Translations under genes and position numbers: made by a program
The notes under the pieces: model-generated
Databases searched by the model: none
What the model saw: only the letters and a program-made list of their open reading frames with translations
What the model was told of the DNA's origin: nothing
Assembly (NCBI RefSeq): GCF_005473905.2
Contig: NZ_CP061336.1
Location: 2,348,501 to 2,412,500 of the forward strand
DNA length: 64,000 nt
Direction: 5' to 3'
Origin: Ruminiclostridium herbifermentans
Lineage (GTDB): Bacteria; Bacillota; Clostridia; Acetivibrionales; DSM-1351
Shown here: positions 12,769 to 59,474 of the stretch, piece after piece
Numbering within the stretch: position 1 is the stretch's first letter
Layout: every line of letters starts with the position of its first letter

Positions 12769-14526
12769 CTATTTATCTGCTGGGAATTTATCAATTATGC
12801 CAAGCAGCTTCTGCTTCATTAAAGCAAAATCAAGAGCATCTATATTTCCAGAACCATCCACATCTGCATTAGTTAAATCAATTGATACTGTGTTAACACC
12901 TAATAAATAGGATTTTAATAGACCAAAATCTATAGCATCAAAGTTTCCGTCTAAGTTAACATCACCTATTAATCTAGTTGATGGAACAACAAAATTATAA
13001 AGATCTTCTGGAAGTTCATCCAAAGTAATTACTTTATCACTGTTGTAAATGGTTTTTAGGAGTACAGGATCATTTCTGTCAATGAGGTATTCACTATACC
13101 ATGGACAGAAATACAACCACCAAGCACCTTCATTAATTATATTTTTAATGTCTGGAATAACATCGTTTTCAGACATTGCAACCATTTTTGTGTCGTTAGT
13201 ATAATTTACAAGTGAAAGGAATAAACTTGTTGCAGCACTTGTACCCCAATTAGTAGGAGAACCTTCATACTTGTCATATGCAACTATATCTACGTAGTTA
13301 TCTCCTGGATACCATTGCAGAGAATTAGCATATGTATATAGGTTTACTTCCCAAATAAGATTATGGAGTCCATATTTTTCAGTTAGAGTATTGTAAAGCA
13401 GCTTCCATAAACCTTTAAAAGCTTCTGCACCTGATGATCCCCACCAGAACCAAGCACCAGAACCATCTATATTGTTGTAGCCTTCTGCTTCATGGAAAGG
13501 ACGTAATATTACTGGAACATTAGCTTCTTGAAGAATGAGCAGCTGCTCAGCAAGGTCATCAATTGCAGCCATTAGATAAGCGTATTCTTTGGTTGATGAA
13601 TCGAGACAATTAGCAGTTTTAAAGCTGGAAGTTGGCTTATAAGTACATTTTTGCCAATCCACTGCTTCACCAAGCTTATAGCTTGTAAAATCCTGCGGTA
13701 TATTGATATGCCAGCATGCTGTTGCAATACCGCCACGTTCCTTAACCCATTCAATAATACGATCGGTTGTACCATCTTCCCAGCCATAGAGAGGATTATA
13801 GTTCATAAAATCAAAGCCCCTTATTGCTGGATATTTGCCTGTTTTGTTATATATGTAGTCAAATTCATATTCATAATTACCGTCATGTCCACTGCCGTAA
13901 ATTTCCTGCTGACCAGAAATCACACTTTTCCCATAAACACTGGTAAGATATTTCATAAGAGATTTTGTTTCAGCAGTTGCTTTTGGATCGCATAGTGTAG
14001 GTTCAATATTAAGATCTGGCATATCTGCATAGTCAAATGTTATTGTATCGTATATTATATAACCCCAACTGCCTGAGGAACCGATTTCAATTGTCGCAGT
14101 ACCTTTTTCAAGATAAAAGAAACCAAAGCTGTAATCAATCCATTGACCCTTGTTTGGGATGTAGAAATCTCCAATTTTTTTACCATTTACACTAACTGAC
14201 TGAAGTCTTGTTTCATCTATTGCACCTAAATACATCCAACATCTTGTTTTAAGTTCATACATAGCGTTTTCAGGAACATTAACCTTTAATGTTATTGGTC
14301 CTGCATTTGTAACCCAAGCAAACCCAGCACCAGAATATCCAGGATATTTTGTTCCATAGACATCAGTAGCAACAGTAACACCACTTCCGAGAGTACAAGC
14401 TTCAGCTTCAACAGTCAATGGCAGTGAACTTTCAGCTTGTACTGGTACAGAAATTGTTGTAATAACAGTACAGACCATTGCGATGGCTGCAAGCATAGAG
14501 ATAGCTCTGCTATAAATTTTCTTCAT
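12769..14526 (-). CDS. Cellulosomal GH26 beta-mannanase with CBM35 and C-terminal dockerin
   Basis: 585 residues: signal peptide (about 1-32), CBM35-type sugar-binding domain (about 33-165), GH26 catalytic domain (about 170-505), and a dockerin with two calcium-loop repeats (about 520-583). The acid/base Glu is in RPFHEAEG and the nucleophile Glu in MSENDV, the GH26 pattern of endo-beta-1,4-mannanases. The dockerin (repeat cores [14 protein letters not shown] and [14 protein letters not shown]) would anchor it to a scaffoldin. The start is MKKIYS at 14526, just after AAAGGGGTG; an upstream in-frame Met at 14562 lacks a better site. A terminator follows and a palindromic repeat array lies upstream. 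Confidence 0.92.
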
Positions 14527-14856
14527 AAAAAACACCCCTTTTAATAAAATTTCCCCCATCAATAAATAAATAAGAAACTATCCTGTCAAAAAGTCAACAC
14601 GTAATAACGTCATGCTATTAAGTTAACACAAACTGATTATCAAAGCCGCAATATATGCCAAGTTCATCTGTAACAGTTGGATTATATTGAGTGAGTGCTT
14701 TTCTCAGTAGCTATAATGTATTAGTTGATAGTAATTTGCAAATATAATTACAGTTTGGCGCTTTTGTTTAATACAAAATTGAAATTTGAAATAATGCTGT
14801 GCAGCAAGTTGTTTTTAGTGTTTAAAACCAAAGCGGATACTGAAAGTCTTCGCATA

Positions 14857-42416: not shown

Positions 42417-45400
42417 TCAATTTTTACAATACCACGCAGACTTATGACCTGTTGCTCTACCACCCTTTTCTGAATAGGTGAAGAAGAACCCTAATTTACT
42501 ATAATTTTTTAATTCTTTTTCCAGTTGTTTTCCACCTACAACCCAAAGTGCACCTCCTTTTGCTCTATTGTCAATAACCTCAAATCCTTTATCTTTTAAT
42601 ATTTTATATATGTCTCTGTTGTTGGAACTTGATTCGAACTCCAAAAGATTATCTTTGCTGATTATTTCTTTTTTTCCTACTAAAGTACTTGCTTCTATTT
42701 TAGATTGATTATTATGAAGTGATTCTTTATTATATAAGCTATTCAATCTACTCGCTGCAATATGTTCAATAGATAACTGCAAATCCAAATTATCTAATGG
42801 TAGCTCAAGTGGTAACTGTTCTAGCTTGATATCATTGGTCTTAGTATCAACTTCTGAAGAATTTGTCATTTCAGATTTTCCATATGGTATATCTGTATAT
42901 TTTTTGATATTATATTTATGCGTAATATTATCTCGTTCTATCGTTTCTCCTGTAAAAACATCTTCTTTTATTTTTATTGCACCAAATTCGCCTGATTGCT
43001 CTGTTTCATAGTTGATAATTTTCTCATGCCACTCCCTACGAATTTGCTCTGCACGTCTTTTTATTCTATCAATTATTTCATTTTCCATAGAAATCTTTGT
43101 TTTGTCATCAATATCATCAGATAAATAATTAGGTCTTATCCCATAGCTTTCCAACTCTTTAAAAACCAATTCCATGGTTTCTTCTGGGGCTCTGTAAAAT
43201 TCACTTCCTCTAATTCTGATGAATTTCCAGCCTAATCTTTCCAGAATAGCTTGTCTTTTTAAATCATTCGGCAAATTATCTTGAGTATGCCATTTTTCAC
43301 CATCACATTCTAAAGCAATATTCTTATCCCCATCCTCAATAACTATATCTATTCTATATGCTCCAACGTTCCATTGAGGGATAACTTTGTAACCATGGTT
43401 AACGAGTACATTTATAACTTCCTTTTCAAAGTCTGACTCTGCTCTATTTATTATTTCTATTTTTTTATCAATGGATGGATTAATAGCATGCCTTATTAAT
43501 CTAAGCCTTATATCATTTGGTTTTAAATCAATTTCTGGATTTAATGAATGTACAACCCACATTTGATCCTTTGCTCTACTCGCTGCAACATTATACTTTT
43601 TTCTATTGATATCATTATTACCATCTTCACTTAATAGCCTAACTGGTCCATCTTTTTCACTTGGTCCTTCAACAATGCTTAAAAATATAATATCTCTTTC
43701 ATCACCTTGAAATTGTGATGCCGTTGCACACTGTATTTTTCTATTTTCGTACTCTTTAGGATCTAAATTTACTTGTAAAAATCTATCTATTTCATATGAT
43801 TGCTCATGTCCTAACAAAGAGATTACTCCTATTGTTTTATTTTTATAAACTTCTTCCTCACAACAGGCACAAATCAATGATGCAATATGTTCAGCCTCAA
43901 CTTTATTAACTTTATTAGAAGATTTATATGCATTAGGTACTCTATATTCAATTAGAGCAGGTTTTGTTTTTACTTTTGATCCATCCCGTAAAGGTTTAAT
44001 TCTACCGTTATAAGATAATTGATTGCTGAACTCAATAATCTCTGGTAAACATCTAAAATGCTCAGTTAACATAATTGGTTTAAATCCAGATGTTTTTGCA
44101 ATATCATATATGGATATTTTTCCATTGAATAAATGTTTATTTGGTATCCCCTGTAAATGTTGCTCAATTAATGCACCAACTTCTTCAATTTTTATACCAA
44201 CTGTATCAGGGCTTACTTGTTCATCATCGCCAACTATAATTACCTTTTTACCTAAATATAATGCCGCAAGAGCTAGTATACCAGCTTGACTTGCTTCATC
44301 AATAATTACAACATCAAATTTATTTTTCCTCGGATCAAAATTTTCAACTACACGATTTAGTGGCATGATCCAAACGGGAATTGCAGTTTGGCAAAGTGGC
44401 ATCAATTCTCTTGCCTCTTTTATCAATGCAGGTGCAGTCTTACCAGTGCCTTTTCCAAATAGTTTAATTGTTGCCCTCCAACCCTCAATGGCTTGGGTTT
44501 GAACAACAGATATATTCTTTATTTTTTGATACCATGCTTTTTCAAAAGCAAGAGTTCTCGCATTGCTCATTAATAACTCATTTATCTTGCTCAATTCTTT
44601 TTGTATTGCATTGGCATCATAACTATCAATTCGTGCTATTTGATTGCTAAGTTGTCTCCATTTCCATGCTAATTCTATATTTTCAGGTAGCATACAATCG
44701 CCATGAATTCCATCCCTACTTCTTATGGCTTCACCCCAATCTGGTGCAATAATTTCTAATTTTCTTAATAAATTAGATCGCTCTAAATATATATCTTTCT
44801 TTGCTAACACACTTGAAAGCATACCATATGCCATTGTATATGTATTTGTATCTTTATTAATAATGGCTTGAATAAGATCAATAAATGGTTGTCCATATTC
44901 TTTATATTCATTCAAATAGTTTGCATATTGTGTCCAATCATTTTTTATTTTACCTAATAGTTCAAATTTTCTTCGTTTATCTAAATCAGGTATAAAAATA
45001 TTATTAAGTAAGAGTGAAATAGATTCTATTGGTTTTTCAATTTCAATCACATTAATTTCTTCAAATTTAGCTTTATTAGAGCAAATATCATACAATTCTC
45101 TTGTGAAGTTTAACCAGACATTTTTATACCAACTTAAGGATGAAAAAATCTTGTTACGTTTTTGCTTAACTTTTTCCTCAAAATTATCTATAGTTAAAAT
45201 TGCATTTTCAGATACTTTAGATAATAATTTATTAAACTTTTTAAGTATTTTAGTCTTTTGCAATTCGTAATTAATAATAAATTTTACATTCTCAAAATCA
45301 ACTCTATTTTCTATAACTTTACCATCGTTAGTTATTTCATCTTTAAGTTTTTTCCACTTAGGTTTTGTAATCATTGTTACTAAAGTCACAGGGGCTTCTT

Positions 45401-47636
45401 TTCCAGAATCAATGATTTCATTAAGAATAGAGATACTTTCGTAAGTTACTATTTTGCTTGGTATGTTATAGTCGTTTTCAAAGCGCAATTTTCTATATCT
45501 ATCGTAATATTCAATTAAAACATCAAATTCCTCAAAAGCAGTTTCCCAAAAAGTACAGTATATACTATCTTTTATAGACTTCTCTATAATGGTAGATTGA
45601 TAATTTTCCATATTAGTTAAACTATACCCAATTTCTATAGCTGTTTCCAACAGATTTGACAAAATATTTTCTTCAATATTATCTTTCAAAACTAGTTTGG
45701 GGTTCCACCCCATAAGTTCTTCACTATATCTCAAGTATTCGTCTACACTATTTTTGAAATCATCAATGCTCCATAGTGACTCTAAAGTTGGCAAATTCTT
45801 ACTTAATAATTTATCTTCTTCTAAAGTTATTTGTTGATTTGAATGATACAAAGTATTTAAATCTTCCATTGATAGTGGTAAACCCACAGTATCATCTTTT
45901 GTTTTACCTGGTATATAGTCAAATTTACCTTGTCCAGAATTAATGAATTTAGCCGCATCAATTGGCGTAATTGTTTGGTTTGCAAATACAATATCCTTGT
46001 ACTCCAATGACCGAATTTGAAGGAGTTCTTGACTTTTCGCCTTTGACTTGTTTATCAGTTCATTTCTTTCATTATGGAGTCTTTCAATCTTATTCTTTGA
46101 TTCGTGTAAATCAAGAGATGTACTTTTTATTTCAATCTCATTAATAGCATCATCCATTTCTTGTTTTTGTGAACTTGTACTTAGGAGACTAATACAAAGA
46201 TTTTGAAGGTTAACTTCTTTATTATATTGATCCTTATACACCTTTTCTTTAAGCACAGTTAAAGCTTTTTCAGTATGGCTGGTAACAAGTACACTATTCC
46301 CTTGACTTAATAGATGACCTATAAGATTTGCTATTGTGTGTGTTTTTCCTGTTCCTGGAGGTCCTTGAACTAGAACTGCACCATAGTTATTAATGTATTT
46401 GATTATTTTTAGTTGTTCATTGTTAGCTGGTAAAGTCAACAAAATATCCTGATCAATACCACTCTGATTCCAATCTTCATCAATCACATTGGCTTCATTA
46501 TGTTCTTTGTGGTTACCAATTATATTTTCAAAGAAGTCTGGTAATTCTATATCTGGTTTGTTCTCAATATCACTAATAATATTATCAATAAACGACGAAA
46601 ATCCAAGTGTTCTTTTTCTTAAAAATAGAATTGGATTTGACATTATAACTGGACCATTATAGCCATTTTCAAATACTTCAACTAATTTTCCTTTTTCATC
46701 AACAACATTAATTAGACGTTGAAAAAGCGCACAAGTATTGGATGTATCTGCTATATGGTAATTATTCACTTCTATATCTTGAATTACTTGTGAAAGAACT
46801 TTTTGATTTATTGTTGGAATAACTCTAAGCATAGGTGTATAGAGTTCTGTTTTTAACTCATCACATTTCACAGTAAAAGATGGCTTATCAGGGTTAAATA
46901 TTAATTGAACCTTTTGAAGTAATACAGGGTGATCAATAATTCTAAGGTCTGTATTCCAATATATATGTCCATCTCCAAGTAATAGTTCAATACTTTCAGA
47001 TTCTTTTTTTATATCAGAGTATAACTTAAATAAATTGTTATATAAAATAAGTCCCTGCTCTTTTGGAATTTCTTGTGTTCTCCATCTATTGCGCTTTTTT
47101 GTCCATTCATTATATAAATCTACACGGGCATCTAGGTCAATAAACTTTTCTTTAGTAGAGCAAATAACCTCATCTAAATATTTAAAATTTGTCTTTTTTG
47201 CACCACATTCTGGGCATACCCAATTTTCTGAAACAGAATTAAAATCATTAGCTACAGTTGTTTTTCCTTCTTGGTTAAATTGCTGAGGATTATATACCCA
47301 AGAACAGTTTTTGCAAATATATCTTGCAAACTTTACTTCTTTCGTCATTACCTCTTTATATTGAATCGTCTTGGTATTTAGTTTTTTCCAATCGCCAATA
47401 AGCCATTCAATAAGCAGGTCATTTGGAGCAGGACATGGCTCTAAAACAGGTCTTTTCACTTCTAATATTTTTAATCCATCAAAATCCTGTGTATCATAAA
47501 TAGACCAAATTTCAGTAATTTGTGGCAAATTTGAAAGTTTAATGCTCCATTTTTGTTTTTCAATTTCTGTTATAACAGGATTTGAGAGTTCATTGTAGTC
47601 TTTTAGAAAATTAAAAATATTATTTATGTGAGCCAT
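42417..47636 (-). CDS. Giant SF1 helicase-nuclease with an N-terminal rubredoxin-like domain (probable DNA defence or repair)
   Basis: 1739 residues. Residues about 104-151 form a rubredoxin-like knuckle pair, CKNC at 108-111 and CPECG at 141-145 with WVCPECGAKK context. The helicase has Walker A GPPGTGKTHT (about 428), a long insertion of about 650 residues rich in coiled-coil-like sequence, Walker B VVIIDEASQAG (about 1110) and late motifs TASQFQGDERD and NVAASRAKDQMWVV. A PD-(D/E)XK / Vsr-DUF559-type nuclease follows (about 1400-1500: DIVIEDGDKNIALECDGEKWH). The C-terminal 60 residues (GALWVVGGKQL, GGRATGHKSAWY) recur in such helicases. It resembles DUF4011-helicase-Vsr defence proteins in layout. 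AGGAGG precedes the ATG. It is a lone gene in an accessory region. Confidence 0.85.
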   Translation of the reverse strand: MAHINNIFNFLKDYNELSNPVITEIEKQKWSIKLSNLPQITEIWSIYDTQDFDGLKILEVKRPVLEPCPAPNDLLIEWLIGDWKKLNTKTIQYKEVMTKEVKFARYICKNCSWVYNPQQFNQEGKTTVANDFNSVSENWVCPECGAKKTNFKYLDEVICSTKEKFIDLDARVDLYNEWTKKRNRWRTQEIPKEQGLILYNNLFKLYSDIKKESESIELLLGDGHIYWNTDLRIIDHPVLLQKVQLIFNPDKPSFTVKCDELKTELYTPMLRVIPTINQKVLSQVIQDIEVNNYHIADTSNTCALFQRLINVVDEKGKLVEVFENGYNGPVIMSNPILFLRKRTLGFSSFIDNIISDIENKPDIELPDFFENIIGNHKEHNEANVIDEDWNQSGIDQDILLTLPANNEQLKIIKYINNYGAVLVQGPPGTGKTHTIANLIGHLLSQGNSVLVTSHTEKALTVLKEKVYKDQYNKEVNLQNLCISLLSTSSQKQEMDDAINEIEIKSTSLDLHESKNKIERLHNERNELINKSKAKSQELLQIRSLEYKDIVFANQTITPIDAAKFINSGQGKFDYIPGKTKDDTVGLPLSMEDLNTLYHSNQQITLEEDKLLSKNLPTLESLWSIDDFKNSVDEYLRYSEELMGWNPKLVLKDNIEENILSNLLETAIEIGYSLTNMENYQSTIIEKSIKDSIYCTFWETAFEEFDVLIEYYDRYRKLRFENDYNIPSKIVTYESISILNEIIDSGKEAPVTLVTMITKPKWKKLKDEITNDGKVIENRVDFENVKFIINYELQKTKILKKFNKLLSKVSENAILTIDNFEEKVKQKRNKIFSSLSWYKNVWLNFTRELYDICSNKAKFEEINVIEIEKPIESISLLLNNIFIPDLDKRRKFELLGKIKNDWTQYANYLNEYKEYGQPFIDLIQAIINKDTNTYTMAYGMLSSVLAKKDIYLERSNLLRKLEIIAPDWGEAIRSRDGIHGDCMLPENIELAWKWRQLSNQIARIDSYDANAIQKELSKINELLMSNARTLAFEKAWYQKIKNISVVQTQAIEGWRATIKLFGKGTGKTAPALIKEARELMPLCQTAIPVWIMPLNRVVENFDPRKNKFDVVIIDEASQAGILALAALYLGKKVIIVGDDEQVSPDTVGIKIEEVGALIEQHLQGIPNKHLFNGKISIYDIAKTSGFKPIMLTEHFRCLPEIIEFSNQLSYNGRIKPLRDGSKVKTKPALIEYRVPNAYKSSNKVNKVEAEHIASLICACCEEEVYKNKTIGVISLLGHEQSYEIDRFLQVNLDPKEYENRKIQCATASQFQGDERDIIFLSIVEGPSEKDGPVRLLSEDGNNDINRKKYNVAASRAKDQMWVVHSLNPEIDLKPNDIRLRLIRHAINPSIDKKIEIINRAESDFEKEVINVLVNHGYKVIPQWNVGAYRIDIVIEDGDKNIALECDGEKWHTQDNLPNDLKRQAILERLGWKFIRIRGSEFYRAPEETMELVFKELESYGIRPNYLSDDIDDKTKISMENEIIDRIKRRAEQIRREWHEKIINYETEQSGEFGAIKIKEDVFTGETIERDNITHKYNIKKYTDIPYGKSEMTNSSEVDTKTNDIKLEQLPLELPLDNLDLQLSIEHIAASRLNSLYNKESLHNNQSKIEASTLVGKKEIISKDNLLEFESSSNNRDIYKILKDKGFEVIDNRAKGGALWVVGGKQLEKELKNYSKLGFFFTYSEKGGRATGHKSAWYCKN

Positions 47637-48117
47637 TCGGTTTCCTCCTATTCAAAAGCATTTAGTTTTCATTTGAAAATTTTTTCGTTTTTTGTTTTAC
47701 GACGCATCATCAGCTCAGCTATCATTTTACCATAATTCAATACAATATGGTAAATATTTATATAATTATCTAAAATATAGTACATATTTCTCTACTAACT
47801 AAAAAAATTGCACATATCAATATTTAATCACAAGTCACGAATGCGTATGCATTTCAATTATGACTATTACAATTATTCCAACAAAAAAAGCCACGCACCA
47901 GTAACCTTTACAAACCACCAGTGTGCAGCTTTTTTCACCCATTATATTTTTCTATCAAATCTATTACTGATTTTTATTTTGTTAATGCTAATACTTATTT
48001 TTAATTCAAGCCATTATCAATGCATTGTATATCTGTTACGTTTAAATAAATATATGCTATCACTAGTTTTCACAGAAAATCAGATATACCATCCGTTATC
48101 CCCTTACAACATATAAC
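47637..48117. other. Intergenic region between helicase and receptor genes
   Basis: AT-rich. It contains the terminator at 47885-47937 and no convincing gene; an open frame on the plus strand across it has no ribosome site and runs through the hairpin. Confidence 0.5.
47885..47937 (-). terminator. Terminator downstream of the second chemotaxis receptor
   Basis: AAAAAAGC and CGCAC on the left pair with GTGTG and GCTTTTTT on the right. A T-run follows on either strand. It lies about 180 bases past the receptor stop. Confidence 0.65.
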
Positions 48118-50151
48118 TTATGAGAATCTTTTTACAATTCCGTTGATTGCAAGTGCGTTTTCTTTATTTTGGCTGACAATAACCGTCATTTCTTCTGTTG
48201 TTACTTCTGTTTGGTGCGCTTTAGCCAAAATATCCTGACTGTTCACTGTCTGAGAATCTGGAACATCTGATACTGATTTAATATGAGCCTGAATTGTATT
48301 TACTGTTTCAACGAAAGTTGAAGATGCACCAGCAATATCATCAATAATGACCCGAATATCCTGAATTGACTGATGATAATCATTAGTTGCATTTTTAAAC
48401 TCAACAAACTGTGCTTGTACATCCTTTTCCAGAAATGCAATAACCTGATCAAAACAGGATTGAATATTTGTAATATTATTTCTTGTTTCATTACATATTG
48501 CTTGGATTTGAGTAGCAGTATCAGATGAACTTTTGGCCAAATTGCCAATTTCTCCTGCGACAACAGCGAATCCTTTTCCTACATCACCTGCTCTTGCTGC
48601 CTCAATTGAAGCATTTAATGAAAGTAGGTTTGTCTGTTTTGTTATATCCAGAATCTTTGATGCCATTTCATCTATACGCATCAATGATTGTAAGTCACTC
48701 AATGCACGTTCAATTGTTTTTTGATTTTCTACTATTTGTTCACTGATTGTTTTCATTGAGTCATTTGCGAAGCTTTGCATTTGAGCAACTTTTTCAAGTA
48801 ACGTACTACTATGCAGATTACCCTGACGAATTCTTTCTTCTACCCCTGATACTACATGAGCAACTTCCGCTACCTCATGATCTACTTTTGAAACTGCTGC
48901 ATTTACTTCTTCTGTATGCTCTGCAAATAATGATGTTGCCTTTGCGTTATCTGATACGCATTCTAACAAAACTTCCGATGAATCTTGAATAGCAATAGCA
49001 GATTCACTTAAAGAAGAAGAACAATTGCTAAGAGTATATACAATTTCTTCTAACGCATCATACAAAGAATTCATTGCAGTAGCAATCTGTCCGATTTCAC
49101 TCTTTGTACCAATCCATGGTTCCAATTTTTTATTTTTCTGTAATTTTAAATTTGCAAGTTGTTTGATAGAATCTTCAACATATCGCAAAGGCTTCGTGCT
49201 TAATCTAATCATTAAAAATGACAGTGAACTGATAACAAAAACAAAAAATAAACATATCATACCAAGTACTCTCGAATTCTTATTGGAATCACTATAAATA
49301 TTCTTTTTGCTATCATATGATACTACAGCCAAACCATTTTTGCTGATATATTTGTAACTAGCAACACAATCACCTTCTGTTTCATCAGTATAATAAAGTT
49401 CTCCGTAATTACTGTTACCCTTAATTTTATTGATAACACTTAATAACATAGGATCTTTAATTTACTGTGCAATCAAAGTCTCATCATCGGCAAATATATA
49501 TTTTCCGGTCATAACATTAATCATATAGTATCTAGCTGTTTCTTCTTCTCTTTTCAATTTATTTAAAATATTCTTTAAACTTTCTGCGAATGGTCCACCA
49601 CCTACATAACCTACAATTGTAGTTCCATCTGTGTCATACACAGGGCAGTACATAGACAAAATAAGCTGTCCGTTTGCCGGAGAAACAATTATTCCTGCAT
49701 TATATAGTCCATTTTTCATTGAATCCTGTAATTGTTTTAGACTGTCTCCTTCTTTCCTCCAGGTGCGTCCTACGTTAGAAGCATTTGAATGTGTAATACA
49801 ATGAGTATTCCACTCTCCGATATAAATACCTTCCCAATTATCAAGTCCTGCAAAGTAGCTTTCAGTATAAACTTGTGCAATTGCTTGCTTTTCAGAATTA
49901 TGTACATCCTTTAATAATTCTCGTACTACAGGAGCCTTACTAAAAGAAACTAATAAACTTTCTTGATTTGTTATATACTGTTCAATAAGACTTGTACGCG
50001 CTAAAAGATTTGTATCCACTTGATTGTGCTCTGACTGTTTCATCATGCTGTTAATTGTTGTGTTTGCCATAACATAAAGCAAGCCGATACAAACAATGAC
50101 AATTATCAGTATTCCCAATGTGATTGTTCTAGTTAATTTCCAGTTCTTCAT
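48118..50151 (-). pseudogene. Methyl-accepting chemotaxis protein interrupted by one in-frame TAA
   Basis: A single frame of about 678 codons broken only by a TAA at 49462-49464 (codon 230, after DETLIAQ). The 5' part has the first membrane helix and a Cache-type sensor (YVGGGPFAESLKNI); the 3' part resumes IKDPMLL, then the second helix ([20 protein letters not shown]), HAMP and the signalling tip [20 protein letters not shown]. One C-to-T change from CAA would explain it. This is the second receptor in the window with such a break. Confidence 0.82.
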
Positions 50152-50594: not shown

Positions 50595-53500
50595 CTACCT
50601 CTCATAAGGCAGCTTATCATATACCCCCAACAAGTAACCTTTGAGAATTGCCAAGTCAATAGCATTTATTTCGCCATCTCTATTCAAGTCTCCAACATAC
50701 ATTACATCTTTTACGTCAAAGCTGTCTCGCATACCCAGCAGGTACTGTTTTAACAATGCAAAATCAATTGAATCAACTGCTTTGTCACCATTATAATCAC
50801 CTACTATATCATCATTAGCAGCATTTACTATAATTGTTGCTTTAACTCTTACTTCTGATTTCACTTTTCCGTCAGCAAATGGTGAACCAAAGTTTGGTGT
50901 GCCGTCACTGTTCCAGAATAATTTTTGAACACGAGTGTGTCTGCCTGCATCATATAGAGGTTCATAGCTGCCAGATATATATTTTTCTTCTTGACGTGCG
51001 TGGTATACAAGAATATCTTCACTGCCATCCTCTGATACTGTAAAGGTATTGTGTCCTGGTCCGTATTGGCCTGCCTCTGTATTTAAGGTCATTACTGGAT
51101 AAGGTGTCTTCACCCATGATTTAGGATTTAATAAATCGCTGGTATCAGAAGCTGTAAGAAGTCCTATGCAATATAGCGCATCTGTTCCGCTTGCAGAATA
51201 TGCAACGAATATTTTTCCATTTCTTTTAATTACACTTGGTCCTTCGTTTACCTTGTAAGCATGTAATTCCCAATCGTAGGTTGGTTCTGCAATTTTAACA
51301 GCATTAGTTTCAATTGTGTATGGGTCCTTCATTCTTGCAATATATAGGTTTGAGTTAGGATCATTTTGTGCCCAAATCATATACAGTTTTCCGTTATGCT
51401 CAAAAACAGTTTCATCCAGAGAGAAGCCAGTAAATGCCATGTCTGAAGAATTTGTTTTCTTAACAAGACCCTTGTCCTGCCAGTTACTCTTTACCATTGG
51501 GTCTAAATTTCCTGGGCACATCAATACATGAGGACGTATTGCCCAAACATCAGTGCTGGATATTGTAGTTGTATAGTAGATATACCAATTGCCGTCGATA
51601 AAGTGTATTTCAGGAGCCCAAACATGCGGACTCTTATTTCCGCCAAGTGGAGCCTTTGTATATATTACTTTTTCTTCTGCAGTGGCAAGTCCTTGAATAG
51701 TGGTTGCTCTTCTAAGTACAATTCTGTCATATTGGTACATTCCAACATTGTTATGTCCGTTTGAACCGTCTGTATAAGAAGCAGTAAAGTAATAATAGCC
51801 ATCTGTATGCTTGTATATACAAGGATCTGCCCTGTTTAATATAAGCGGATTGTTATACTCATTATCATATAGTGTTCCTTCTACAGTTATAGTTCCAGTG
51901 CTTGGATTTAGAGCAGGCTCAACCATAGCATCCCATGTTACCTTAGCACTTCCTGTAGTACCATTGCTGTAAGTTACATTAACTTTTGAAGGCAATTCAG
52001 GTAATTGACCTGCTTCCTTTTTAAGAATTACATCTTCAGCACTTATAATTTTAACTGGCTCGTTTGGAATGCCAAATTCTTTTGCAATTTCTGTTTCTGT
52101 TAATGCACGGTTGTATACTCTTACATTGTCAAAATAGCCTTTAAAGTATGAATCTCCTGAATAGAAGGATTTACCTAAATAAGCCAGCAGCCCTGTACCT
52201 AAATCCGACATTGATAAGGATACATTATTGTTTCTGCCAAGCATTAAGCCATCCTTATAAATTGCCATACTAGTAGGCGTTATTACCAGCTTTATATTCA
52301 TCCACTTGTTTGCTATTGCTGCTGTTGTGGCTTTAACTTCTTGTTCGTTTTGAAATGAATTTATTGTTATGGCATTTCTGCTTTCAGTATCTCTAGTTCT
52401 AAGGAACATGTATTTATTAGTATCTTTTCCCACTGTAAAGGTAAAGAAATTACCTGATACTGTTATGGGCTTAATGTCCATTGAAATAGTTACAGTGTCT
52501 CTGCCATCAAAGAAGCCCTGAGGAAATGCAGCAAAAGTATTTGTTGTTCCATCTAGATATAATACTTGAGAATTTTTCTCAGAGTCCCTTACATAAGTTG
52601 CGTTTCCACTTAATGTACCAGTTCTATTATTACCTGATGTATCAGCTATTGCATTTCCTGACTTTGTTTCATCAAATTTATATTCTAGTACTGGCTTTTG
52701 TTGTGGCTCCTCAAAAGTCATACCACCCCATTTTGCCATTACAGCATTGTATTCTGCCTGTGTTATAGGCATTACTGTTCCATGACGAGGCCCAGTTGGC
52801 AACTTGTACTCTGAAGAGTTCAATTTTGTAAACACACCTGAAGAAATGTCTGTGGATACCATTGGATAGTAACCGCTGCCTCCATAGTAGTCTAATAGTA
52901 GACACCATTTGTTCTGACCGTTAAACTTGAATATTGCTGGGCCTTCAACACCTCTCTGACTTTCAACACTAGTTGATTGCAAATATACGAAATTCTTATT
53001 CAGTAACTGGTCACATTTATCTATTATAATGTTTTTATTTACCTCATCCTTTGAAAATCTGTAATATATACCTTCATGCTTGATGATGGTTGTATCTATT
53101 ACATCATTACTTCTGTCAATATATAGCTTTGGTTCGGTAAAGGTGTAGAAGTCTCTTGTTTTTGCTATATATATTCTAAACTTACTAAAGTTATCTGCTC
53201 CTATTCTAGATGCCCAGAACATCACATATTCTCCTGTTTTATCATCGTATACAATTTCAGGAGCCCACGTACAGCCTGCATCATCTCTTGAAACCTTAAC
53301 CAGCCTTTCTTTAGACCAGTTCACTAAATCATTGGATTCCCAAACAACAACAGATTTACTTCCGTATGTTCCGGCATGATCCCAGCCCTTGCCATTTGCT
53401 ATTCTCAGGTCTGTTGCTACCATATAGAACTTATCACCTTCAGGTGATCTCAAGATATACGGATCACGTACACCTTTATCTCCAACGGTTGAAGTCAATA

Positions 53501-54959
53501 CTGGATTGTTATTATTCAGTTCATTCCAATGAAGTCCATCTTTACTTGAAGCAAAGTATATCTGCTCTGCATCTGGTCTATTAGTGCCAGTAAAATATGT
53601 AAAGAAATATGCCTTATAATCTGATTCACTTATAGGCTTTGGCTTAGCCTTAACAGTAATAGTTAAATCTGTTGTACCAGTTGCAGTTCCTCTAGAAAGT
53701 TGCGCTGTTAGTTTTACTTTGGTGTCTTGGCTTGGTCTTGTAACAACACCAGCAGGTGTGTTATCATAACCTGAATTAATTATTTCATTTACATTAACAA
53801 TATCAGGTCTGTCAGTTGTCCAAGTTAAATTAACCGCAACTCCGTCCACAACAATTGATTTAGGCAATGTTATATTTCCACGTATATCATTTGCATTAGG
53901 AATGGAAAGCTGCCTTTTTGCCAATTCAATAATTGGGTCTTCTCCTGGCAATATTGCTTTTACCGTTACATTAAATACCTTAGTATCTTTTACATTTCCT
54001 CTTGCAATTGTGGCTGTAAGTGTGACTTGCTTATCTGTATCAGGATATTTAGGGCGAGTAACATTACCTGTTGTTGAAATAATACTTGTATCTGATGATT
54101 GCCAGGTAATAGTACTTCCATTTACTCCTGCTGTTGGCAAAGTGATTTTTGAAATAACAGAACTTAAATCTCCAAGGTCTAGCTCAGCTTTATCCATTGC
54201 AACGATATCAGCCGATAAGATATTACTAATATCAACAACCTCTGACTGGCTTAGTGCTCTGTTGTAAAGTCTAAAATCAGCCACTTTACCATTAAAATAC
54301 TTATCCTCAAGATAAGGTGCTCTTCCAATAAAATTTTCTACTGTAGACTCGATATCTTTAGGAGCATATTTGACATTTTCATTAGATGCCACTTTAACCC
54401 CATCAACATAAAGAATACCTGTAGTTCCTTTTTGAGTATATGTAACATACTTCCATACTCCTGTGCTGAATGCCGAACTTACTCTAGTGTTTTGTTCGTC
54501 ACTCCAATGTTCTCTTGCAAGCATAACCCTGTATACATTAGGTTCTAGCAAGAAACCAAAATAATGTGCGTTTACGTCTTTTTTGGAATCTATAGTAGTA
54601 CCAAAAGTGAATATCCAAGATGGGGTAATGTTAGCCGGGTCAACAAAAATTCTTGCACTAACCGTTGTTTCTGTCAGCCCTGATAATAATCCATTGGGCA
54701 TTCTTATATACCCTGAGTTACCATCTAGCGAAATTGCGCCAGAACCATTCTGTGCAGCTATCCAGCTGTAGTTACCATACAAAATTCCATCTCTTCCATT
54801 TCCAGAAGAATCGGTTACTTTTGTGCCAGTTCCCTCGTTAAACTTGTACCAAAGCATCAAACTAGCATCAGCATTTGCTTTTCCTTCAGGTAAAAAAGAA
54901 AATAGTTCAACAATGAACACGGCAATTAGAAAATAAGACAAAATTCGCTTTTTGAACAT
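50595..54959 (-). CDS. Cellulosomal enzyme with two GH43-type propeller domains, two LamG domains and dockerin
   Basis: 1454 residues. In order: signal peptide (1-30), LamG/concanavalin-like domain (about 33-240), two atrophied Ig-like domains (about 248-435), first GH43-like five-blade propeller (about 445-750; RDPYILRSPEG, CTWAPEIVYD), second LamG (about 760-975), Big-type Ig domain, second GH43-like propeller (about 1040-1370; NRADPCIYKH, HVWAPEIHF, FSLDETVFE), and a C-terminal dockerin (about 1390-1450). GH43 enzymes cut arabinan, arabinoxylan or galactan. Two catalytic propellers in one chain suggest paired activities on a branched substrate. The start follows AGGAGGG. Neighbours are other side-chain enzymes and an AraR-like regulator. 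Confidence 0.87.
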   Translation of the reverse strand: MFKKRILSYFLIAVFIVELFSFLPEGKANADASLMLWYKFNEGTGTKVTDSSGNGRDGILYGNYSWIAAQNGSGAISLDGNSGYIRMPNGLLSGLTETTVSARIFVDPANITPSWIFTFGTTIDSKKDVNAHYFGFLLEPNVYRVMLAREHWSDEQNTRVSSAFSTGVWKYVTYTQKGTTGILYVDGVKVASNENVKYAPKDIESTVENFIGRAPYLEDKYFNGKVADFRLYNRALSQSEVVDISNILSADIVAMDKAELDLGDLSSVISKITLPTAGVNGSTITWQSSDTSIISTTGNVTRPKYPDTDKQVTLTATIARGNVKDTKVFNVTVKAILPGEDPIIELAKRQLSIPNANDIRGNITLPKSIVVDGVAVNLTWTTDRPDIVNVNEIINSGYDNTPAGVVTRPSQDTKVKLTAQLSRGTATGTTDLTITVKAKPKPISESDYKAYFFTYFTGTNRPDAEQIYFASSKDGLHWNELNNNNPVLTSTVGDKGVRDPYILRSPEGDKFYMVATDLRIANGKGWDHAGTYGSKSVVVWESNDLVNWSKERLVKVSRDDAGCTWAPEIVYDDKTGEYVMFWASRIGADNFSKFRIYIAKTRDFYTFTEPKLYIDRSNDVIDTTIIKHEGIYYRFSKDEVNKNIIIDKCDQLLNKNFVYLQSTSVESQRGVEGPAIFKFNGQNKWCLLLDYYGGSGYYPMVSTDISSGVFTKLNSSEYKLPTGPRHGTVMPITQAEYNAVMAKWGGMTFEEPQQKPVLEYKFDETKSGNAIADTSGNNRTGTLSGNATYVRDSEKNSQVLYLDGTTNTFAAFPQGFFDGRDTVTISMDIKPITVSGNFFTFTVGKDTNKYMFLRTRDTESRNAITINSFQNEQEVKATTAAIANKWMNIKLVITPTSMAIYKDGLMLGRNNNVSLSMSDLGTGLLAYLGKSFYSGDSYFKGYFDNVRVYNRALTETEIAKEFGIPNEPVKIISAEDVILKKEAGQLPELPSKVNVTYSNGTTGSAKVTWDAMVEPALNPSTGTITVEGTLYDNEYNNPLILNRADPCIYKHTDGYYYFTASYTDGSNGHNNVGMYQYDRIVLRRATTIQGLATAEEKVIYTKAPLGGNKSPHVWAPEIHFIDGNWYIYYTTTISSTDVWAIRPHVLMCPGNLDPMVKSNWQDKGLVKKTNSSDMAFTGFSLDETVFEHNGKLYMIWAQNDPNSNLYIARMKDPYTIETNAVKIAEPTYDWELHAYKVNEGPSVIKRNGKIFVAYSASGTDALYCIGLLTASDTSDLLNPKSWVKTPYPVMTLNTEAGQYGPGHNTFTVSEDGSEDILVYHARQEEKYISGSYEPLYDAGRHTRVQKLFWNSDGTPNFGSPFADGKVKSEVRVKATIIVNAANDDIVGDYNGDKAVDSIDFALLKQYLLGMRDSFDVKDVMYVGDLNRDGEINAIDLAILKGYLLGVYDKLPYER

Positions 54960-57872: not shown

Positions 57873-59474
57873 TTATTTTACTGGAAGCGAAGGGATACTT
57901 CCAAGTAAATACTGTTTAAGATTTGCAAAGTCAATAGCATCAACAGCATTGTCTAAATTTACATCTGCAGCTAATTTTCCATTCTCAGCTGGGAAATCAG
58001 TAATGCTACCCATTAGATATTGTTTTAGTGTAGCAAAATCTAGAGCATCAACGATTTTATCTCCATTTACATCTCCATAAATAACAGTAGGTTGTGTTGT
58101 TGCTGCATTAAATTTCCACCAACTTACATTGAGGAGGTAATCGCTTCCACCTGTGAATCTGAGGTATAAATCATGTACACCTGTTGCACCACTAACAGCA
58201 CAAGTTTTAGTTTCATAAGTTTGCCAACCACCAGTTGATGGTACTTCTAAAGTACCAACCAATTTTCCTGTTGGGCTGTCTAAACGAAGCTCTATATTTC
58301 CTCCTTTAGTGTTACTTGCTACTCTAGCCTCAAAACTTTTAGCGCCATCGCCAAAATCGACGCCTCTCACTCTAATCCAGTCTCCATTTTCAATAAATGC
58401 AAGATTACGTCCGCCTTCACCGCATTCTTCTGTTTCAATACCACTTTGCTCAGCCATAGTTACTGCTAAATTCTTTACATATGGATCTACGTATTTTAAC
58501 TGTTGTAAACCGTCTTTTGTGATTGTAACTTTCTTTATAGTACCATCAGAATTATATTCTAGACGGTCTATACAAACATTTCTTTGATATGTTGTGTCAA
58601 CTTTATTTTGCATTGCTACATATCTATTATGATATGCAATATACCAATTATCTTTAAATGTAAATATTGAATGATGGTTATTGTTACCGCTGTTATCAGG
58701 TGGATTAGGTAATACTGTACCCTTATGCACGAAACCTGTTGTAGGTTTATCACTCATCATATATTCAATAGTAGCCGCACCTTTTGAGAAGTTACTTGAA
58801 TATGTAAAATAGTACTTTCCTTTATACTTATGCATGTATGAAGCTTCAAAGAATAGTGGAGCTGTCATTGTTTGAGCAGAACCAACAGTACTTACCATAT
58901 CATTGCCTAACTTGATAACTCTTATATTACTTTCACCATTTCCTCCGAAATACATATAAGCTTGTCCGTCATCATCTACAAATACACCTGGGTCAAATAA
59001 CCACATATTGTTTGCAGGCATAACTCCAGGAGTGTTAGAATCTACTAAAGGCTTAGTTCTTACATCTTTAAAAGGACCTGTTGGGCTATCACTTACAGCA
59101 ACACCGATAGCACTTCCGCCATTACCATAATACAAATAGAACTTATTATTACGATAAACTATTTGAGGTGCCCATGACTTAGTTGCTCCCCAACTGCAAT
59201 CTTTAGATGGAGTAAAAACTTCACCATGGTCTGTCCAGTTCTTCATATCATCAGTTGATATACATGTAATATCAGAAATTATGTAATTTTCTTGACCATC
59301 ATTATCATGTGACATATAAAGGTAAAGTCTTCCGTTATACTCAACTCCAGTAGGGTCTGCTGTATAACGCTGAGAGAATATTGGATAGTCTGCAAAACTA
59401 ACTGATGCTGAAGAAAGCAATATAGCACTACTTATAAAAGCAGCTGCAAAAATTTTCTTGATTTTATTAAACAT
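57873..59474 (-). CDS. Cellulosomal GH43 arabinofuranosidase-type enzyme with CBM6 and dockerin
   Basis: 533 residues: signal peptide (1-28), GH43 propeller (about 30-325), CBM6-type domain (about 335-460) and a dockerin (about 468-530, DALDFATLKQYLMG and DAIDFANLKQYLLG). Catalytic features are YTADPTGVEYNG (Asp base), LFDPGVFVDDDG (pKa Asp) and PLFFEASYMHKY (acid Glu). GH43 plus CBM6 in this order is typical of arabinoxylan arabinofuranohydrolases and xylosidases. The start follows AAGGGGG. A candidate AraR site lies about 350 bases upstream. Confidence 0.9.
   Translation of the reverse strand: MFNKIKKIFAAAFISSAILLSSASVSFADYPIFSQRYTADPTGVEYNGRLYLYMSHDNDGQENYIISDITCISTDDMKNWTDHGEVFTPSKDCSWGATKSWAPQIVYRNNKFYLYYGNGGSAIGVAVSDSPTGPFKDVRTKPLVDSNTPGVMPANNMWLFDPGVFVDDDGQAYMYFGGNGESNIRVIKLGNDMVSTVGSAQTMTAPLFFEASYMHKYKGKYYFTYSSNFSKGAATIEYMMSDKPTTGFVHKGTVLPNPPDNSGNNNHHSIFTFKDNWYIAYHNRYVAMQNKVDTTYQRNVCIDRLEYNSDGTIKKVTITKDGLQQLKYVDPYVKNLAVTMAEQSGIETEECGEGGRNLAFIENGDWIRVRGVDFGDGAKSFEARVASNTKGGNIELRLDSPTGKLVGTLEVPSTGGWQTYETKTCAVSGATGVHDLYLRFTGGSDYLLNVSWWKFNAATTQPTVIYGDVNGDKIVDALDFATLKQYLMGSITDFPAENGKLAADVNLDNAVDAIDFANLKQYLLGSIPSLPVK

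Follow-up and report, generated by a model that had tools for sequence, protein, structure and literature searches.

A predicted rubredoxin domain within a helicase-nuclease of Ruminiclostridium herbifermentans, a possible member of a candidate defence family

Layout and relatives of the helicase-nuclease

Among described proteins, the closest to the one considered here are the Hhe/DUF4011-helicase-Vsr proteins, in which an SF1 helicase is followed by an MTES_1575/Vsr-type REase, the anti-phage protein ProA (NCBIfam NF058533) and PDC-S37, a candidate single-gene defence family of PADLOC. We compared with them a protein encoded in a 64,000-nucleotide stretch of the R. herbifermentans genome (the whole stretch of DNA analysed, hereafter the window). 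The list of open reading frames of the window places a 1739-aa ORF with an ATG start on the minus strand at 42417-47636. Its features, in window coordinates, are as follows; other loci are referred to by handles such as L004.

42417..47636, minus strand: helicase-nuclease ORF with the embedded, predicted rubredoxin, 1739 aa (ORF list, Pfam, homologs)
47644..47649, minus strand: Shine-Dalgarno sequence aggagg, 7 bases ahead of the ATG (read from the DNA)
47352..47636, minus strand: residues 1-95, family-specific N-terminal domain, first half (alignment)
47163..47345, minus strand: residues 98-158, insert missing in relatives, L004 having the short loop INDEGN there; ends uncertain by a few residues either way (alignments, DNA comparison)
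47184..47324, minus strand: residues 105-151, match to PF00301 Rubredoxin (Pfam profile)
47304..47315, minus strand: residues 108-111, knuckle 1, CKNC (motif placement)
47205..47216, minus strand: residues 141-144, knuckle 2, CPEC (motif placement)
46437..47162, minus strand: residues 159-400, N-terminal domain, second half, where the model has a helix at 169-211 and strands at 216-258 (alignment, model)
46020..46424, minus strand: residues 405-539, SF1 helicase domain AAA_11 with GPPGTGKT (Pfam, motif placement)
44397..46019, minus strand: residues 540-1080, long region separating helicase motifs Ia and II (alignment, motif placement)
44208..44309, minus strand: helicase motifs II (IIDEASQ) and III (alignment, motif placement)
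43551..44084, minus strand: residues 1185-1362, helicase domain AAA_12 (Pfam)
43152..43430, minus strand: residues 1403-1495, MTES_1575/Vsr-type REase (Pfam, 102.4 bits, cut-off 38.2)
42420..42674, minus strand: residues 1655-1739, C-terminal module, weak match to the ZorC C terminus, E 2.2e-5 (PADLOC profile, alignment)

Both helicase domains, AAA_11 and AAA_12, are found by Pfam, and the helicase motifs are readable by eye. The latter were picked out in the homolog alignment and then placed on the sequence. With MTES_1575 scoring above its cut-off, this bears out the layout proposed in a sequence-only reading of the same DNA, namely a module preceding an SF1 helicase that is followed by a Vsr-type nuclease. 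The same reading had likened the protein to DUF4011-helicase-Vsr proteins, and this likeness holds for the helicase-nuclease part only. The succession of SF1 helicase and MTES_1575/Vsr REase (for MTES_1575, see Biol Direct 2013, PMC3710099) is shared with the Hhe/DUF4011-helicase-Vsr proteins, whereas the window protein has no DUF4011 match among its best 25 Pfam families and its score with NCBIfam Hhe (172.9 bits) is far below the cut-off of 2000. DUF4011 membership is not supported, as the family is not among the best 25 of the 32 Pfam families with matches at E<=1 (the last of the 25 has an E value of 0.025, and the remaining seven rank lower). ProA is likewise similar over the helicase-nuclease part (profile positions 1278-1722), whereas the overall score of 222.5 bits is far short of the cut-off of 1500.

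The best PADLOC model for the window protein is PDC-S37 (230.7 bits in two stretches). The two are of similar length, the profile having 1550 positions, whereas the best stretch of the window protein, matching profile positions 905-1385, is limited to the helicase-nuclease part. PDC-S37 matches all nine members of our alignment, the window protein included; Hhe, MkoC and MkoA also match all nine, more weakly. With an SF1 helicase and a Vsr/MTES_1575-type nuclease in a single gene, the group most likely destroys invading DNA: from its domains, the helicase would load on and unwind foreign or aberrant DNA, and the nuclease would cut it.

Members of the group differ in their ends. Ends similar to the ZorC-like C-terminal module are found in L041 and L086 and not in L004, L005 and L040; in this comparison the tail seems to be exchanged between members. 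In L004, L005 and L040 each tail has two copies, recognised by eye, of the short motif [FY]-D-[FY]-R, which the window protein lacks at its end. A separate observation concerns the region between the helicase motifs of the L008 homolog, where CPHC and CGQC (residues 645-668) possibly form a zinc ribbon.

Sequence and predicted fold of the insert

The N-terminal region contains two cysteine pairs, C108-x2-C111 and C141-x2-C144, that the sequence-only reading had already noted for their rubredoxin-like context. Sequence profiles agree with it. The score of PF00301 on the 1739-aa protein in hmmscan against Pfam is 39.4 bits (cut-off 23), and the spacing C-x2-C-x29-C-x2-C, identical to that of rubredoxin, did not occur in any of 20000 shuffles of the same protein. 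Using phmmer, we found 63 distinct PDB sequences matching at E<=0.01, the best being a rubredoxin (2pve_A, E 1.3e-11); by name, the best 60 of the 63 are rubredoxins or proteins matching over a rubredoxin part, namely rubredoxin chimeras, flavorubredoxins, hydroxylamine reductases and a sugar transporter. A search of the organism's own genome gives three PF00301 matches, with 91.2 bits for L001, a free-standing rubredoxin, 46 bits for the helicase-nuclease gene and 24.6 bits for a frame of 224 aa.

For the predicted structure, residues 1-416 were modelled by AlphaFold with an alignment of six relatives that have no insert, so that the insert was modelled without any rubredoxin rows. In the resulting model (pLDDT 73, about 51 in the insert loop 121-130) the insert is flanked by the long strands 96-108 and 151-164. 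Rubredoxins are the top Foldseek matches in the PDB (E 3.2e-4, probability 1.00, TM normalised by target 0.79, rmsd 4.7), the rmsd being 4.2-4.7 in most rows of free rubredoxins. The best VIA-align row has an rmsd of 0.9 over 44 residues and a Z of 7.7, a value in the range (below 8) that, by the tool's own note, can mean merely a common arrangement. All of the best 50 VIA-align entries are rubredoxins or entries aligned over their rubredoxin part; taken up by rubredoxins, this list covers the fold of the insert alone. A single-sequence model of 84 residues is weak (pLDDT 59), and its first matches are again rubredoxins. In other words, comparison of the predicted models with known folds by Foldseek and VIA-align gives a rubredoxin fold, and the rubredoxin module that had been suggested for the N-terminal region is supported by both sequence profile and predicted structure. 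The insert is thus predicted to adopt the rubredoxin fold, with a single Cys4 metal site presumably occupied by Fe or Zn. By the models, the rubredoxin domain looks real.

Since the Cys4 sites of zinc ribbons and rubredoxins look alike, an unrelated zinc ribbon might mimic rubredoxin by convergence, and the CPHC/CGQC pair elsewhere in the L008 protein implies that members of the group can carry Cys4 modules. We consider such convergence highly improbable, given the rubredoxin spacing and the set Y4/Y13/F30/W37/F49. Moreover, the profile (Pfam), PDB-sequence, Foldseek and VIA-align matches are all to rubredoxin, and we disfavour the zinc ribbon on these grounds.

Occurrence of the insert and its possible role

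The closest relative found, L004, is 69.6% identical over 1541 alignment columns and has a short loop in place of the rubredoxin. The alignment also shows no insert in L005 (57% identical) and L040 (49%). Altogether, among 51 distinct readable homologs the window protein is the only one with the cysteine pairs in this loop; they are absent in all 50 others, L004, L005 and L040 included. Homologs were counted as distinct if not identical over a 60-residue stretch, and they include the eight rows from which the profile was built. The 50 consist of 47 homologs with a match spanning the loop and three with a match split there (one of these, L045, being without the middle of the domain); left out of the count were 11 rows not covering the loop, two of which are second halves of counted homologs, and five matches of the phylum draw. 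The sequence-only reading had named non-conservation of the cysteines among homologs as evidence against it. In a sense this is what we observe, as it is the entire domain that the 50 homologs lack, which points to a private insertion. The absence in relatives is observed; by parsimony, the domain would have been gained once rather than lost many times. A likely course is that a rubredoxin-coding segment was inserted in a tolerant hairpin loop at the surface of the N-terminal domain in this bacterium's lineage. The loop is variable, as L078 has about 42 extra Cys-free residues there. This stretch of the L078 frame (residues about 112-162) is charged and perhaps helical.

The family search that had been proposed for the same fusion returned no second case in the genomes, plasmids, phages and viral contigs inspected. 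In 197 genomes, 117 of which gave a match to residues 1-419 at E<=1e-5, no other rubredoxin fusion was found; apart from the frame studied here, those longer than 1000 aa were limited to G020, G093 and G174, none of them matched over the rubredoxin part. PF00301 occurs in 134 of 148 relatives, and the longest frame among the matches listed is 664 aa; the window protein's own weaker match is not listed there, so weak fusions could escape. With residues 1-419 as the query, four of 72,556 plasmid records matched, two being helicase relatives (L040 and L041) and two matching over the rubredoxin part alone; the whole-protein query matched 429 plasmid records, of which L040 and L041 are the two that were read. 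Five phage records matched, none over the N-terminal part. Viral contigs contributed 1 + 15 loci: nine of the 15 have an N-terminal match with no C-x2-C in any of the nine frames, and the other six, having no N-terminal match, are uninformative on the insert. No report of a rubredoxin fused to a helicase-nuclease was found in the open PMC literature, where most subscription journals are missing. The components are known, and the combination is new to the literature searched and the homologs inspected, the window protein being its single instance so far.

An insert that a single one of 51 readable homologs has, in a loop that tolerates some 42 additional residues in L078, could be a neutral passenger, that is, a chance insertion that folds harmlessly and has no function of its own. 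Rubredoxin also serves as an artificial insertion partner in receptor chimeras, as seen from PDB names and titles, and therefore appears to be a benign insert. Nonetheless, the G+C content of the insert equals that of the whole gene (0.30 in both), giving no sign of a fresh arrival, and despite wide divergence from the rubredoxins of relatives all cysteines and the core are kept, as expected of a fold that has been under selection for some time. We regard a mere passenger as unlikely.

What the insert has kept and lost was assessed against 32 rubredoxins from the examined loci, including that of the own genome. These were picked by a pattern that required the Cys pairs, an aromatic residue and CP at knuckle 2, and one of G, S or A following a Cys pair; invariance at these positions is hence partly built in. 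With this proviso, the insert keeps 10 of the 15 positions invariant in the set; the five lost are Y11 (replaced by W), G18, D19, G27 and T28. Preserved are all four cysteines, Y4, Y13, P15, F30, W37, P40, G43, K46 and F49, with Y4 and F30 being nearly invariant in the 32 rubredoxins. Compared with ordinary rubredoxins of PF00301, the predicted fold, the Cys spacing and the core aromatics are alike. By contrast, the insert sits in a 1739-aa protein, its net charge is +2 compared with -2 to -11 in the 32 rubredoxins, Gly10 of knuckle 1 is replaced by Ser, and loop 18-28 is degenerate and has lost its Gly/Pro character; the acidic surface and the Gly/Pro-rich loop, both missing here, are typical of rubredoxins and not strictly defining. 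Rubredoxins dock to rubredoxin reductases by their acidic face. The pattern of changes, read from one sequence, suggests selection for a metal-held fold and no longer for docking to ordinary redox partners. The loss of acidity could also follow merely from embedding in a large protein.

Based on these observations, we favour, at about even confidence, a Cys4 metal knob that a probable defence nuclease has acquired and that has a structural or contact role instead of carrying electrons. The rubredoxin would project from the N-terminal domain as a metal-stabilised Cys4 knob and would probably make contact with a partner, with nucleic acid or with another part of the enzyme. We prefer a knob to an electron shuttle because the Cys4 site and the hydrophobic core are kept while the acidic surface is gone.

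An alternative is a gate responding to redox state, O2 or NO, in which oxidation or nitrosylation of an Fe site would switch the helicase-nuclease, for instance restraining it during anaerobic growth or releasing it under stress. All four ligands and the core aromatics are kept, in the model the domain stands out from the N-terminal domain on two long strands and precedes the helicase, and the free-standing rubredoxin L001 of the own genome means that Fe-rubredoxin is probably made in the cell. However, electron transfer of the ordinary rubredoxin kind is made less likely by the lost acidic surface, knuckle 1 and loop 18-28 are altered as described, and no rubredoxin reductase or NO gene was recognised in the 20 window proteins scanned with Pfam. 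The absence of the domain in every other readable homolog further implies that the group can be active without it. Gating by redox state or NO is possible, with less support than the contact knob; we judge it distinctly unlikely. The boldest version, that this would be the first of its kind among defence enzymes acting on nucleic acids, gated by redox state or NO through a rubredoxin centre that senses the oxidation state of the cytoplasm or nitrosative stress and licenses or restrains DNA destruction, is a long shot, a shade less probable still.

The protein offers a natural case of rubredoxin as a mini-domain within a large nucleic-acid enzyme. If the domain is functional, it would extend the role of rubredoxin past electron transfer and tie DNA defence to metal or redox state in a testable way. 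The absence of the insert in a 70%-identical relative makes a clean comparison with and without it possible. Even as a passenger, the domain would mark a loop that accepts whole domains.

Genomic neighbourhoods

The group has a patchy distribution: at E<=1e-10 it was found in 2 of 58 genomes of the order, 13 of 391 in the draw from the class and 34 of 398 in the draw from the phylum, the own genome being included in each. Among the neighbours sampled, clear defence genes are present near the homolog at five of nine loci of relatives. They comprise a type I specificity subunit in L004; type I R, M and S together with an HEC-06-like gene in L005; AbiH, PDC-S31 and PDC-S20 in L007; an annotated type I system in L040, on a plasmid; and type I R in L086, on a viral contig. 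The sampled neighbours at L006, L008, L009 and L041 include no countable defence gene: neighbours resembling RecQ and DinG (L006, L008) and a partial match to MzaA (L009) were not counted as defence, and in L041 a single neighbour, without a match, was scanned. For the window copy itself, 10 nearby proteins gave no convincing match to a defence model. Nine of these 10 have no PADLOC match, and the tenth, a chemotaxis gene, has ZorA matches (best E 1.4e-5) so weak that we took them as chance. The Pfam scan of 20 window proteins did not reveal a recognisable defence gene either.

In the two closest relatives, a similar-looking gene of 577-578 aa lies near the homolog (L004:8115-9848 and L005:7265-8995) and weakly resembles the mREase_IV/PbeA models. 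It has one weak match (26%) elsewhere in the window's genome. This gene might be a partner gene of the helicase-nuclease.

The window copy lies between a transporter-like gene and the chemotaxis gene. Of 11 genomes examined in the genus, two, the own genome among them, have the former, and the spot is therefore probably variable. The latter, a methyl-accepting chemotaxis gene (48118-50151, minus strand), contains one in-frame stop that divides it into two same-frame ORFs of 229 and 443 aa. Elsewhere in the window there are dockerin glycoside hydrolases, which Pfam assigns to GH26 and to GH43 with CBM6 (12769-14562 and 57873-59474), and on a third gene (50595-54959) a dockerin-like C terminus was recognised by eye. 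Judging by these dockerin-bearing glycoside hydrolases, the host is probably a cellulosome-forming bacterium.
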